Shown here: in pieces, positions 28,810-33,350 of the stretch
Position numbering within the stretch: the stretch's first letter is position 1
Layout: every line of letters begins with the position of its first letter
From: Clostridiales bacterium
Lineage (GTDB): Bacteria; Bacillota; Clostridia; Christensenellales; Aristaeellaceae
Length of the DNA: 35,961 nt
NCBI GenBank assembly: GCA_015056245.1
Contig: SVGQ01000018.1
Coordinates: 1 to 35,961, forward strand
Reading direction: 5' to 3'
Translations under genes and position numbers: made by a program
The notes under the pieces: generated by a model
Database searches by the model: none
Told to the model about the DNA's origin: nothing
What the model saw: the letters and a program-made list of their open reading frames with translations, nothing else

Positions 28810-29925
28810 TTACTGCATCAGATCAAACGCGTTGATGTATTCCAGATTCAAACTGTTGGCAACATTCTGGTTGGTGCACTTGTGCGCATAGATGTTGATG
28901 CCGTTCGCCAGTCCAGCATCCATTTTGGCGGCGGCTTCCAGACCGTGATCAGCCATCAGCATGCCGTAGCGGAAGGTGGAGTTGGACAAGGCAATGGTGG
29001 AGGTGTAGGGCACCGCGCCGGGCATGTTGCCAACGCAGTAATGCACCACGCCTTCCTCAATGAAGACGGGATTGTCGTGGGTGGTGGTATGGGAGGATTC
29101 GCAGCAGCCGCCCTGGTCGATGGCGATATCCACGATGACTGCGCCTTTCTTCATCAGCTTCAGATGCTCGCGGCGGATCAGCTTGGGGGTGGAACCGCCG
29201 GGGATCAGCACAGAACCGATGACCAGATCAGCCTCGGCAAGGCACTTGCGGATGTTGGCATCGGTGCTGTACAGGGTGGTGACGGAAGCCCCGAACACAT
29301 CTTCCAGATAGCTGAGGCGGTTGAGGTTGATATCCAGCAGGGTCACCTGCGCGTCCATGCCAACGGCAGCCTTGGCAGCGTAGGTGCCGGCGATACCGCC
29401 GCCAATGATGGCGATCTTACCGCGCTCCACACCGGGTACGCCGCCCAGCAACAAGCCGCGACCGCCGAAGCTGCGCTCCAGATACTTAGCACCTTCCTGA
29501 ATGCTCAGACGGCCCGCCACCTGACTCATGGGACGCAGACAGGGCAGGTTGCCCTCTTTGTCGGTGATGGTTTCGTAAGCCACGGCCTTTACGCCGCGAT
29601 CCATCAGCGCTTTCGCCAGACGGGGATTGGGGGCCAGATGCAGGTAGGTGAACAGGATCTGGTTTTCCCGCAGCAGGTTGTATTCGCTGGGTTCTGGCTC
29701 CTTTACCTTCACGATCATCTCTGCTCTGGCGTATACTTCAGCAGCGGTGTCCACTACGATACCGCCTGCGTTGCGGTAATCTTCATCGCTAAAGCCGCAG
29801 CCCTCGCCAGCGTGGGTTTCCACATAAACGGTGTGGCCCTTGGCAACATAGGCAGAAACGTTATCCGGGGTCAGACCGACGCGGTATTCATGGTTTTTCA
29901 GTTCCTTGGTAGTTCCGACGATCAT
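28810..29925 (-). CDS. ald: Alanine dehydrogenase
   Basis: A 371-residue protein of normal Ald length. The N-terminal domain begins MIVGTTKELKNHEYRVGLTP with the pyruvate-binding R15. K and H of the active site are in VKVKEPEPSEY and TYLHLAPNP. The Rossmann loop is IIGGGIAGTYAAKAAVGMDA and the C-terminal part has VIVDIAIDQGGCCE and NMPGAVPYTST. It interconverts L-alanine with pyruvate, ammonia and NADH, in the cytoplasm. It is the third gene of the operon headed by the aldolase/decarboxylase fusion. It could supply pyruvate or alanine to that pathway. AAGGAG precedes ATG. Confidence 0.97.
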   Translation of the reverse strand: MIVGTTKELKNHEYRVGLTPDNVSAYVAKGHTVYVETHAGEGCGFSDEDYRNAGGIVVDTAAEVYARAEMIVKVKEPEPSEYNLLRENQILFTYLHLAPNPRLAKALMDRGVKAVAYETITDKEGNLPCLRPMSQVAGRLSIQEGAKYLERSFGGRGLLLGGVPGVERGKIAIIGGGIAGTYAAKAAVGMDAQVTLLDINLNRLSYLEDVFGASVTTLYSTDANIRKCLAEADLVIGSVLIPGGSTPKLIRREHLKLMKKGAVIVDIAIDQGGCCESSHTTTHDNPVFIEEGVVHYCVGNMPGAVPYTSTIALSNSTFRYGMLMADHGLEAAAKMDAGLANGINIYAHKCTNQNVANSLNLEYINAFDLMQ

Positions 29926-29980: not shown

Positions 29981-30907
29981 TTACCAGATGGGGGTGAGCC
30001 AGCCTTCCGGGCTGCCCGCCTGACCGCGGACGATGTGGTCGTACTGACGGGATAGCCGGTAAGTGAGGCTGGCTTCATTCTGGGCAGGCACTTCGTAGCC
30101 ATCAATAGCGGTAATGGGGGTCAGGCCCATGGAGGAACCGCACAGGAAGGCTTCGTCACACAGGTACAGCTCGGTGCGGTCCACAGCGCGTTCCTGCGTG
30201 GGAATGCCCAGTTCCTCAGCCATGCGCAGCACCGTATCCCGGGTGATGCTCTCCAGCACGCTCTCGGTGATCAGGGGGGTCACCAGCACGCCGTCCCGCA
30301 CAAGGAACAGGCAGGAGCCGGGGCCTTCTGCCACCTTGCCCTGCTGATTGAGGAAGATGGTGGTGTCGTAGCCGTTGCGCAGGGCTTCCAACTGGGCCAT
30401 GCGGCTGTTGATGTAGTTGGCGCCGCATTTGATGCGGGGGGACAGGCTGTTGTCGCTGATGCGCTGCCAGGAGGATACGCAGCAGCGAAGACCGGTCTTG
30501 TTGTATTCCGCGCTGGTGTGCCGCTTGGGAATAGGGGCCACAAACATGCCCACCTCCGTGCGGGTGGTCCAGGAGCCGAATCCGTCGGCAAACAGGGTCT
30601 GACGGACAGCCAGATCCTCTTTGTATTCGTTGGCCTTCACCACATCGGAAAGAGCTTTGGTCATTTCCGGGATGGAATAGGGACAACTGAGTTGCAGCAG
30701 GCGCGCGCTGCGTTCCAGACGGCGGTAGTGATCCTCCAGCCGGAAAGCGTACAGTTGCTGCTTTTCTTCGTTCCAGTAGCAACGGATGCCCTCGAACACA
30801 TTCAGGCCGAACTGAGCGGTGGGGGAGAGCACGTTGATTTTCGCGTCGTTTACGTTCAGTGTTTCACCGTTGAGCCAGATAAAGCGGTTGTTTACTTCGG
30901 TCGCCAT
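29981..30907 (-). CDS. Class IV PLP aminotransferase (branched-chain type)
   Basis: A 308-residue protein. The fold-type IV pattern is clear: FIWLNGETLNVNDAKINVLS, FEGIRCYW, LEDHYRRLERSARLL, the PLP lysine in RIKCGANYINSRMAQLEA, EGPGSCLFLV, SITRDTVLRMAEELGI and ELYLCDEAFLCGSSMGLTPI. It looks nearest to IlvE, but the phosphate-side motif normally reading S/E-N-[LIV]-F is S-C-L-F here, and the GTAAE motif is GSSMG, so substrate range may differ. ATG at 30907 has AAAGGAGAAG upstream; the longer in-frame start overlaps the fusion gene. It lies 19 bp after the fusion gene and is probably translated with it. Confidence 0.88.
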   Translation of the reverse strand: MATEVNNRFIWLNGETLNVNDAKINVLSPTAQFGLNVFEGIRCYWNEEKQQLYAFRLEDHYRRLERSARLLQLSCPYSIPEMTKALSDVVKANEYKEDLAVRQTLFADGFGSWTTRTEVGMFVAPIPKRHTSAEYNKTGLRCCVSSWQRISDNSLSPRIKCGANYINSRMAQLEALRNGYDTTIFLNQQGKVAEGPGSCLFLVRDGVLVTPLITESVLESITRDTVLRMAEELGIPTQERAVDRTELYLCDEAFLCGSSMGLTPITAIDGYEVPAQNEASLTYRLSRQYDHIVRGQAGSPEGWLTPIW

Positions 30908-30926: not shown

Positions 30927-33014
30927 TCAGAAAGCGTAGGTGGCAAACAGATCGTCAAAGTCTTCCGGACGCTTCACCTGACGGGTGACGCCGCCGGCTT
31001 TGTCCACCACGGCAAAGTTGGGCAGGATGAAGGGTGGCTTGAGTACCACGGAGTAGGACCCCACGTTGCCAAACACCAGATAGTCCCCCTGCGCCAGCGG
31101 GCCCTGATAGCCCTTGTAGAGGTAATCGGATTCAATGCAGGTGAAACCGCCCACATTCACATCCTGATAATCGGTGGTATTCGCACCGCAGTGGAATACT
31201 TCCAGCGGAGGATTTTTGCCATTCAGGGTGGGGTTGATGTTGTAGACACTGCCCAGCACTGTGGCGATGGCATGTCCACGCACCTGCTTGATGGTCTTTA
31301 CCTTGCAGCAGAAGCGCATCACATCGCCGCTGAGGGCGCTGCCGGGCTCGATGAGCAGCAGAGGCTTCTCGGCTTCGGACACATTCGCGTAATGGGCGGC
31401 AAACAGGGTGGCAGCAGCCTCTGCGTATTCCTCATAGGTGGGGATGGGGGAAGAAAACTGAGCTTTCAGGCTGTCGTGCATTTTACCGAACAGACCGCCG
31501 CCCAAGTCCACCATTTTGGGCTTGAGAGCGTATTTGTCGATCAAGTTCAGCATCCCCTGCGCCCGGGGAGCCCAGGTATCCAGCCTGCGGGTGGCGAAGT
31601 GGCACTGCAGAGAGGTCAGCTCCATGTTTTCATGGGCTGCGATAAAATCCAGCACCTGAGGCAGATCGCTGTCCGCGTCCACGCCAAAGCGGGAGATAAC
31701 GCCGTCGCCGATGTCGAAATTCACCCGGATACCCATGTGCAGCCTGGCAGCAGGATTGCGGCGGGAAATCTCCTCCAGCATGGGCAGTTCATCCAGTGAG
31801 TCGATGTTCACCACACCACCGCTGACCAGCAGTCCTTCCACTGCATCCGCGTGCTTGAAAGGCCCGTTGAAGATCATTTTATCCGCAGGCACGCCGCAGC
31901 GGCGGGCAATCTCCCACTCCATGCGGGAAACCACTTCCGCGTATCCGCCCAGTTGGTGAAGGCGCTTGCAGATGGCGGGGATATAGTTGGTCTTGTAGGA
32001 ATAGGCGATGGCAAATTTGGGATAGCGGCTGGCAAAGGCCTGATGCAGCTCCTGAAAATTGGCGGCATACTGGTCGGTATCCAACAGATAGAAACTCTCG
32101 CCGTAGTTATCACCAATGCGGTTCAGGGTTTCATAATCCAGCTGATCCACTGCCACGGGTTCCGGGGTGGTCATACGGGCGGTGTGCCGCTTTTTTTCCC
32201 GGATGCCTGCGGCGATCTTGTCCACGCTGGCAATCACGGTTTCCCGGTTGCGCTGGAAATAGGCTGCGTCCTTCTGGTTCAGCCGTTCCTCAAACTCCCG
32301 GATCTCCTTCACGCCGTACTGGAACACCTGACGGATCTCGTCGGTTTCCTGCTTGAGCCAGGTGTCGTAGAAACTGCGGGAGAGAATCACCATTTCAGAA
32401 CCCAGCCGGTGGTGCTCCGCAATGATGAACCGGGCTGGCAGCATGCCTTCATCCAGTCGTGCGATACCGCCAAAACCAAAGGGAATGCCCGCTGCCTTGA
32501 TCTTTTCGGCCAGTGCATCCACCATGCCGTTTGCCAACGGCTGGAAGAGGAAATCCATGCCGTGGGAGATATGCAGGTCGTTCAGGCCAATGTGGATCTC
32601 GTCAATGCCCTCCACTGCCAGAATGTCATCAATGGCAGCTTCTGCGTCCTTGTTTTCAAGCAGCAGCATGGTTTTGGCCCGTCCGCCCACCAGCTCCACA
32701 AAAGTGCGGGCATCCTCAGCGCTGCGGAACATGGGCAGCATGACGATATCCGCGCCCCGCTGGATTACATCGCTGATTTCCTCAGCAGAACCGGGATGCA
32801 GGGGATTGACCCGCACCAGCAGCTCCGCCTTGCGGAGCACCTGTCGGATGGCAGATACATCCTCCCGTGTATGCCGGGACTTGACGGTATTCATTCCGGC
32901 CTGACGCTCTTCTTTGCCCAGCGTTTCCAGATCCACAAAAATACGATCCACGGAGCACTGCTCTGCAATCTGTGCGATCTCCGGCTGGTTGGTGATATAC
33001 ATCAGTTTCAGCAT
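30927..33014 (-). CDS. HpcH/HpaI aldolase - type III PLP decarboxylase fusion
   Basis: A 695-residue two-domain protein. Residues 1-270 are an HpcH/HpaI (2,4-dihydroxyhept-2-ene-1,7-dioate aldolase/citrate lyase) barrel with R68 (VRVN), metal ligands E120 (LLENKDA) and D146 (IGLNDLHIS). Residues 293-695 are an alanine-racemase-fold decarboxylase like LysA/SbnH, with PLP lysine K341 (YSYKTN), H472, the glycine loop DLGGG (503-507), EPGSA (556-560), C626 in CIESDY and Y654. All catalytic residues seem present. No ribosome site precedes the internal Met281, so this is one protein. It heads a five-gene operon with a -35/-10 promoter at 33079-33108. Function is open: C-C bond formation plus decarboxylation of an amino-acid product is inferred. 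Confidence 0.9.
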   Translation of the reverse strand: MLKLMYITNQPEIAQIAEQCSVDRIFVDLETLGKEERQAGMNTVKSRHTREDVSAIRQVLRKAELLVRVNPLHPGSAEEISDVIQRGADIVMLPMFRSAEDARTFVELVGGRAKTMLLLENKDAEAAIDDILAVEGIDEIHIGLNDLHISHGMDFLFQPLANGMVDALAEKIKAAGIPFGFGGIARLDEGMLPARFIIAEHHRLGSEMVILSRSFYDTWLKQETDEIRQVFQYGVKEIREFEERLNQKDAAYFQRNRETVIASVDKIAAGIREKKRHTARMTTPEPVAVDQLDYETLNRIGDNYGESFYLLDTDQYAANFQELHQAFASRYPKFAIAYSYKTNYIPAICKRLHQLGGYAEVVSRMEWEIARRCGVPADKMIFNGPFKHADAVEGLLVSGGVVNIDSLDELPMLEEISRRNPAARLHMGIRVNFDIGDGVISRFGVDADSDLPQVLDFIAAHENMELTSLQCHFATRRLDTWAPRAQGMLNLIDKYALKPKMVDLGGGLFGKMHDSLKAQFSSPIPTYEEYAEAAATLFAAHYANVSEAEKPLLLIEPGSALSGDVMRFCCKVKTIKQVRGHAIATVLGSVYNINPTLNGKNPPLEVFHCGANTTDYQDVNVGGFTCIESDYLYKGYQGPLAQGDYLVFGNVGSYSVVLKPPFILPNFAVVDKAGGVTRQVKRPEDFDDLFATYAF

Positions 33015-33078
33015 ACCTATCTCCTTCTTGGCGGAATGGGTTTTTCAAGCGGTGTTCTGCTTGAATAAAGCAACTTTT

Positions 33079-33108
33079 ATTATAATCCAAGCGGAAAGGG
33101 GCTGTCAA
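33079..33108 (-). promoter_or_regulatory. Promoter of the five-gene fusion/aminotransferase/ald/comFC/pyrR operon
   Basis: On the - strand: TTGACA (33108-33103), 18 bp, TATAAT (33084-33079), about 60 bp before the start codon. Upstream lies the distal copy of the repeat-C hairpin. Confidence 0.8.
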
Positions 33109-33125
33109 TTCTTATCCAATACAAA

Positions 33126-33350
33126 ACAGGACAACCGGGGTTGCCGGTTGTCCTGCCAGACTGTCGAAAAACCCATACTTCTGTTCAAAAGTCGCACATC
33201 TTGCACCTACGGTGCTCGCTGTGCTTGCTGAAAAGGGCTGCGGCGCAAGGTTTTGTGGGCTCTGCCCACACCCGGCAGGAAACTGAGTTTCCTGCACCTT
33301 CCCCTTTTTTGACAACCTGACAGGACAACCGGGGTTGCCGGTTGTCCTGC
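33126..33350 (-). repeat. Intergenic repeat, copy C, flanked by a duplicated 31-bp terminator hairpin
   Basis: Two exact 31-bp copies (33126-33156 and 33320-33350) each contain a perfect hairpin CAGGACAACCGG / CCGGTTGTCCTG with a five-base loop. Between them is 163 bp with no ORF. On the - strand this starts GTTGTCAAAAAAA and ends TTTTTCGACAGTCTGG, the same termini as copy B, but with a different interior (several short hairpins such as TGGGCAGAGCCCA and GGAAACTCAGTTTCC). The hairpin copy next to GH127 lacks a T-run on the - strand; the distal copy keeps TTTTGT. This looks like insertion into the GH127 terminator with duplication of the hairpin. Confidence 0.82.

Follow-up and report, generated by a model that had tools for sequence, protein, structure and literature searches.

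The aldolase–decarboxylase fusion and its proposed role

Two questions are raised by a long open reading frame on contig SVGQ01000018.1 of a Clostridiales bacterium, in which an HpcH/HpaI-type aldolase is joined to a fold-type III pyridoxal 5′-phosphate (PLP) decarboxylase: does it encode a genuine two-domain enzyme, and what would such an enzyme help to make? The stretch of 35,961 nucleotides that served as the basis is referred to here as the window. An intact fusion had been noticed in an initial annotation of the sequence, and this observation is confirmed. Four species retain the gene, under purifying selection, and the aminotransferase encoded next to it is the third member of a unit with the fusion enzyme. 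We propose, with about even confidence, that the fusion is a two-active-site enzyme of a three-enzyme pathway making a hydroxy-amine for a surface glycan, in which the adjoining aminotransferase would be the third enzyme.

Integrity and conservation of the fusion gene

The reading frame opens with ATG and contains no internal stop codon. Three Pfam matches above cut-off cover the 695-aa protein: HpcH_HpaI (residues 8–153), Orn_Arg_deC_N (319–562) and Orn_DAP_Arg_deC (565–652). The aldolase half scores 46.3 bits with PF03328 (HpcH_HpaI), for which the gathering cut-off is 25. Fused orthologues of about equal length are present in three further species (L003, L004 and L005; 79–88% identity), so the fusion cannot be put down to misassembly of a single genome. 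The initial description of one 695-residue chain built from two enzyme families is thus borne out by the open reading frame, the Pfam matches and the orthologues. The Nei–Gojobori ratios of nonsynonymous to synonymous substitution are about 0.13, 0.16 and 0.10 against L003, L004 and L005, respectively; they are low in both halves, and the linker evolves faster. The possibility that two genes had been misread as one was rejected, since all four species have an uninterrupted frame, which is under selection. The catalytic residues, which had been described as intact in both halves, are invariant in the aligned rows: R68, E120 and D146 are identical in all 31 aldolase rows (28 different loci), and K341, H472 and C626 are kept in all 22 decarboxylase rows (20 different loci). 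Inspection of the domain junction by eye shows no evident ribosome site, as had also been stated.

Whole-genome surveys found the fusion in four of 17 members of the genus and in four of 308 genomes of the family. A profile of the decarboxylase half matched four of 391 genomes of the class (E 1e-60), four of 398 of the phylum (E 1e-100), seven of 349 of the family of genome G060 (E 1e-60) and one of 344 of the order of G060 (E 1e-100). The centre genome is part of these figures, the samples share members, and the thresholds exclude weaker relatives. Outside the four fusion species, the decarboxylase matches of the class, phylum and both family surveys sit in open frames of only 369–438 aa, so none is fused in this manner. 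The loci L003, L004 and L005 were equated with genomes G007, G002 and G001 on the basis of identical match values, and the species labels of contigs from metagenome-assembled genomes were accepted as given. A plasmid- or phage-borne origin was rejected, because no record in the plasmid or phage collection covers 80% of the protein; a scan of viral contigs returned one match of 44 residues (34%).

The aminotransferase partner

The gene of a class IV aminotransferase begins 19 nt past the stop codon of the fusion gene. Its product resembles the branched-chain aminotransferase IlvE in exceeding the cut-off of the NCBIfam model ilvE_I (262.2 against 245.55). It differs in that the cassette enzymes stand apart from the housekeeping branched-chain aminotransferases (BCATs) of the same genera, with which they share 25–29% identity, and in that the YIRP motif of the latter (seven rows aligned of 11 found) is altered to xVRQ in eight of nine cassette enzymes. 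Among 13 genomes, a cassette-type aminotransferase (at least 59% identity) occurs in all seven that have the cassette and in none of the other six. The distant BCAT is found in 11 of the 13; in G085 only the cassette enzyme was found, and in G021 none. In a tree from which L135 was left out, the nine cassette rows form a group of their own at 100/100, with the caveat that the outgroup is a distant one.

Split cassettes in glycan loci

The aldolase and the decarboxylase are encoded by separate adjacent genes in L006 (labelled uncultured Prevotella), L045 (G085), L052 (G625) and L089 (G861), and are there approximately 50–58% identical to the halves of the window protein. The gene order in these four loci is aldolase, decarboxylase, Bac_transf sugar transferase, aminotransferase. 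The sugar transferases of L006, L052 and L089 share 57–60% identity with that of L045, and the aminotransferases 58–67% with that of the window. The same order is found in L135 (G1702), from the window's own family, where a CoA_binding_3-like domain precedes the aldolase in one fused chain. In L090 (G868) the decarboxylase, aminotransferase and aldolase genes are arranged differently, with 39–47% identity, so that five of the six unfused cassettes share the common order, sugar transferase included. The three-enzyme cassette is present in contigs labelled Bacillota and Bacteroidota. The aldolase–decarboxylase junction is tight in L006, L052 and L089 and spans about 75 nt in L045; with junctions this short, little is needed for a fusion. 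The cassette decarboxylases form one group in the tree with support of 90/91, which is below the star of the tool.

The Pfam families encoded around L006, L045, L052, L089 and L090 include Wzz, flippases, glycosyltransferases, and DegT or nucleotide-sugar enzymes. For the split cassettes a glycan role has good support, whereas for the fusion of the window it is only inferred.

A 2-aminoethylphosphonate operon lies beside the split cassette of L089 (5668–9237). It encodes a phosphoenolpyruvate mutase with a cytidylyltransferase-like domain, a thiamine pyrophosphate enzyme and a 2-aminoethylphosphonate aminotransferase; the phosphoenolpyruvate mutase and PhnW/AepZ equivalogs score above cut-off.

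Two alternative finishing modules

The neighbours of the aldolase were tallied in 34 fetched loci, on the same strand and within 4 kb (within 2.5 kb for Bac_transf), with short duplicate loci excluded. A decarboxylase is present in ten loci, all of which also have the aminotransferase; five have Bac_transf and none has a D-2-hydroxyacid dehydrogenase. The other 24 loci contain no aminotransferase, Bac_transf occurs in 15 of them, and in 21 the dehydrogenase takes the place of aminotransferase and decarboxylase. The loci are not independent of one another, since the fused loci, which are close relatives, make up four of the ten and Exiguobacterium accounts for seven of the 24; no probability is therefore attached to the counts. 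The aldolases of the dehydrogenase loci (Exiguobacterium, Ruminococcus bromii and others) are about 46–54% identical to that of the window. Three decarboxylase-free loci, L023, L138 and L139, have no dehydrogenase either; the aldolase match in L139 spans residues 2–165 only. Since the cassette rows are mixed with the others in the aldolase tree, one type of aldolase seems to supply both finishing modules.

A second aldolase fusion, with the aldolase behind a CoA_binding_3-like domain, occurs in L135, L136, L137, L138 and L139. The CoA_binding_3 family was matched by Pfam in L127 (517–2331; part of L136) and L129 (520–2331; part of L138), and the domain was assigned by similarity in the others. 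We take it to correspond to the N-terminal, membrane-anchored portion of sugar dehydratases of the CapD/PglF type; its hydrophobic start is visible on reading the sequence alone. A sugar transferase lies within 2.5 kb in four of the five loci.

The gene that follows this second fusion in L127, L137 and L138 matches a fusion of VanZ with a sugar transferase (by Pfam in L127 only). In L022 (MT835705.1), labelled "Bacteriophage sp.", the genes of sugar transferase, aldolase and dehydrogenase are ordered as in bacterial glycan loci; this record may be a mislabelled bacterial fragment.

Kinship of the two halves

The aldolase half belongs to the same superfamily as the class II pyruvate aldolases YfaU and HpaI (PF03328). 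E120 and D146 align with the metal-ligand Glu and Asp of YfaU, the best PDB match of the aldolase profile; R68 lies outside that alignment. Presumably, E120 and D146 bind the metal and R68 the substrate. The window aldolase differs from the named aldolase equivalogs in scoring only about 22–33 bits with their models, the cut-offs of which are about 370–440. Residue 31, which follows D28-x-E30, is T, V, F, L, Y or I in all rows and never His, and the PDB alignment stops short of this region. The catalytic His of HpaI would presumably fall at this position.

The decarboxylase half has the PLP Lys, the His, the Cys and the Tyr as well as the barrel and sheet domains of the fold-type III PLP decarboxylases. 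A single-sequence structure prediction was poor (predicted local distance difference test, pLDDT, 42.4). A model from 17 sequences reached a pLDDT of 82.7 and a predicted template modelling score of 0.61, with low confidence at residues 513–519, 586–600, 617–634, 655–664 and 686–695, stretches that include N594, C626 and D630. The fold comparison of this model spanned residues 288–692, so the aldolase half was barely probed, and none of the 50 matches listed is an HpaI-type chain. In fold and score the decarboxylase is closest to the group of diaminopimelate decarboxylase (DAPDC), BtrK and FslC. Unlike BtrK, DAPDC, FslC and SbnH, to which it is about 17–24% identical in the better rows, it has lost the arginine of the EPGR motif and groups with other decarboxylases of glycan loci. 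It reaches 94.5 bits with the FslC model (cut-off 500) and 122 bits with the lysA model (cut-off 297.9). The arginines of the EPGR and RP motifs, which we take to be the substrate arginines of DAPDC, are both absent from the cassette decarboxylases. The window enzyme has S559 and N594 in their stead; the LysA-type L032 keeps both arginines. An identity as DAPDC was rejected on the loss of both arginines and the lysA score below cut-off.

The nearest decarboxylase relatives with fetched surroundings (L046, L047, L050, L053–L057, L091 and L141) are 26–40% identical, and a gene for a sugar transferase or PIG-L is in the vicinity of most of them. They differ from the cassette enzymes in that an ATP-grasp ligase is encoded within 1 kb in all ten and neither an aldolase nor a cassette aminotransferase was found there. 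L131 (G1632) is a further relative; L002 and L032–L034 are weaker, LysA-type matches.

Proposed pathway and alternatives

The class II aldolases of this superfamily make 4-hydroxy-2-oxo acids, class IV aminotransferases use 2-oxo acids and fold-type III decarboxylases use amino acids; the most natural order of the reactions is therefore aldol addition, transamination and decarboxylation. In the route that we propose, the metal-dependent aldolase would add a pyruvate-type enolate to an aldehyde or ketone to give a 4-hydroxy-2-oxo acid. The aminotransferase would convert this acid into a 4-hydroxy-2-amino acid, from which the PLP decarboxylase would strip the carboxyl group to leave a 3-hydroxy-amine. 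The amine, or a sugar bearing it, would then be incorporated into a cell-surface glycan. In the decarboxylase-free loci the D-2-hydroxyacid dehydrogenase would reduce the same kind of 2-oxo acid instead, and the alternation of the two modules supports a shared 2-oxo acid. In the genus of the window the first two genes are fused; no sugar transferase gene adjoins the cassette there, and no glycan-building genes were seen nearby. The cassette usually lies among cell-surface sugar genes, its product is probably an unusual amine, and it could reveal an unrecognised substituent or sugar on the surfaces of gut and rumen bacteria. The pairing of a single aldolase type with either of two finishing modules also leads to a direct hypothesis on the intermediate, a 2-oxo acid. 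Each part comes from a known superfamily. Text searches, in which names containing a slash cannot be used, brought up no account of the combination, of the fusion, of the cassette, of its link to glycan genes or of the CoA_binding_3–aldolase fusion, which is a weak negative.

Several observations weigh against the hydroxy-amine route. The order of its reactions is read from enzyme class alone, and the fused pair would represent its first and third steps, which are not adjacent. The aldolase tree intermixes cassette and other rows (four changes); the triad may have arisen repeatedly or may have swapped aldolases. The L090 aminotransferase retains the housekeeping YIR. The sugar transferase gene of L052 (8740–9384) has an in-frame TAG in the match, its open reading frame covers part of the Pfam model, and the gene may be broken. 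As regards the window itself, no glycan-building gene was found among the 24 selected open reading frames scanned with Pfam, and the sister species carry the same GH127, alanine dehydrogenase and ComF neighbours. The genus yielded no close copy of the sugar transferase typical of the cassette, the best match in G000 being 43% identical and none exceeding 47%, over partial stretches; these matches are much like those in cassette-free relatives.

It is conceivable, if rather unlikely, that the substrate of the aldolase is a nucleotide sugar or a lipid-linked one. Pyruvate would be added to a keto-sugar, and the branch would be transaminated and decarboxylated, yielding a C-branched aminoethyl sugar; in loci with the dehydrogenase the branch would be reduced instead. 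This would suit the presence of a sugar transferase no more than 2.5 kb from the aldolase in 20 of the 34 loci, the fusion of the aldolase behind a CoA_binding_3-like domain in five, and the different transferase subtypes that accompany the two tailoring routes. However, the lineage of the window has the three enzymes without that transferase adjoining, and the seven Exiguobacterium loci have no sugar transferase within 2.5 kb. We consider it unlikely that such a sugar is built from a keto-sugar nucleotide at the start of glycan assembly, with sister loci reducing the branch to a hydroxy acid and the window fusion being a compact form departed from a glycan locus; we know of no precedent for a C-branched aminoethyl sugar, although no search aimed at one was made. 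The reactions might also run in the reverse order, the decarboxylase giving an amine, the aminotransferase an aldehyde, and the aldolase adding pyruvate to that aldehyde. The fusion would then combine the enzymes that open and close a short route and so be explained, but the aldolase occurs in 24 loci with neither the decarboxylase nor the cassette aminotransferase nearby, so these two need not be the source of its aldehyde, and the aminotransferase scores as an amino-acid transaminase. This makes the reverse order improbable in our judgement.

In a lysine-like route, pyruvate and aspartate semialdehyde would be joined, and transamination and DAP-type decarboxylation would lead to hydroxylysine. 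The nearness of the decarboxylase to the DAPDC/BtrK/FslC group speaks for it, but the substitution of both DAPDC arginines, kept in L032, and the score far below the LysA cut-off leave this route very improbable. The initial annotation had likened the two halves to SbnG and SbnH, the citrate synthase and citryl-amine decarboxylase of a siderophore. Membership in the two superfamilies stands. The siderophore reading is not supported, as both halves are distant kin (SbnG matches the aldolase profile with an E-value of only 0.006) and the synthetase IucA/IucC is missing from all nine cassette genomes searched, the control being positive in two of 14 genomes and G000 being 81% complete. The five Pfam-checked cassette loci are, moreover, glycan loci. 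A siderophore pathway was therefore rejected and is scarcely credible; the interpretation given in the initial annotation is partly supported.

Features of the locus and neighbouring genes

The coordinates of the fusion gene, its domains, its putative expression signals and its partner genes are collected in Table 1.

Table 1. Features of the fusion locus (window coordinates unless a locus is named)
Feature	Position	Strand	Remarks
Fused HpcH/HpaI-type aldolase and fold-type III PLP decarboxylase gene	30927..33014	−	695 aa; open reading frame call, Pfam, orthologues, selection
Aldolase domain, residues 1–270	32205..33014	−	R68/E120/D146 kept; Pfam, alignment; split homologue of L006 stops approximately here
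Linker, residues ~271–290 (~20 residues)	32145..32204	−	Predicted long helix 250–282 extends into linker
PLP decarboxylase domain, residues 291–695	30930..32144	−	K341, H472, E556, C626, D630, Y654 kept; EPGR arginine replaced by S559
Ribosome-binding site AAGGAG of fusion gene	33021..33026	−	Six bases 5′ of ATG; read from sequence
Promoter-like TTGACA-18-TATAAT	33079..33108	−	12/12 consensus bases, ~65 nt upstream of start codon; consensus match only
Terminator-like hairpin between GH127 gene and fusion gene	33125..33157	−	Pattern only
Class IV aminotransferase (IlvE-like), dedicated	29981..30907	−	Probable PLP lysine K160; own ribosome site
CoA_binding_3-like and aldolase fusion	L135:6811-8622		Similarity

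An identical 23-base hairpin core is found at window positions 33346 and 33152 on the minus strand, directly 3′ of the GH127 gene and again 5′ of the promoter-like site of the fusion gene. The neighbours in the window encode GH127, alanine dehydrogenase (28810–29925) and ComF, the last named by eye and not by Pfam. Alanine dehydrogenase was rejected as a member of the cassette, because it is present without the fusion in G009, G011, G014 and G016 and because the G625 cassette occurs without it at E 1e-30. In G011 (L092:4947–6048) the alanine dehydrogenase and ComF genes adjoin as in the window. The GH127 gene and this pair are 1.9 kb apart there with no cassette match between them, and the interval between GH127 and alanine dehydrogenase looks like a variable site.
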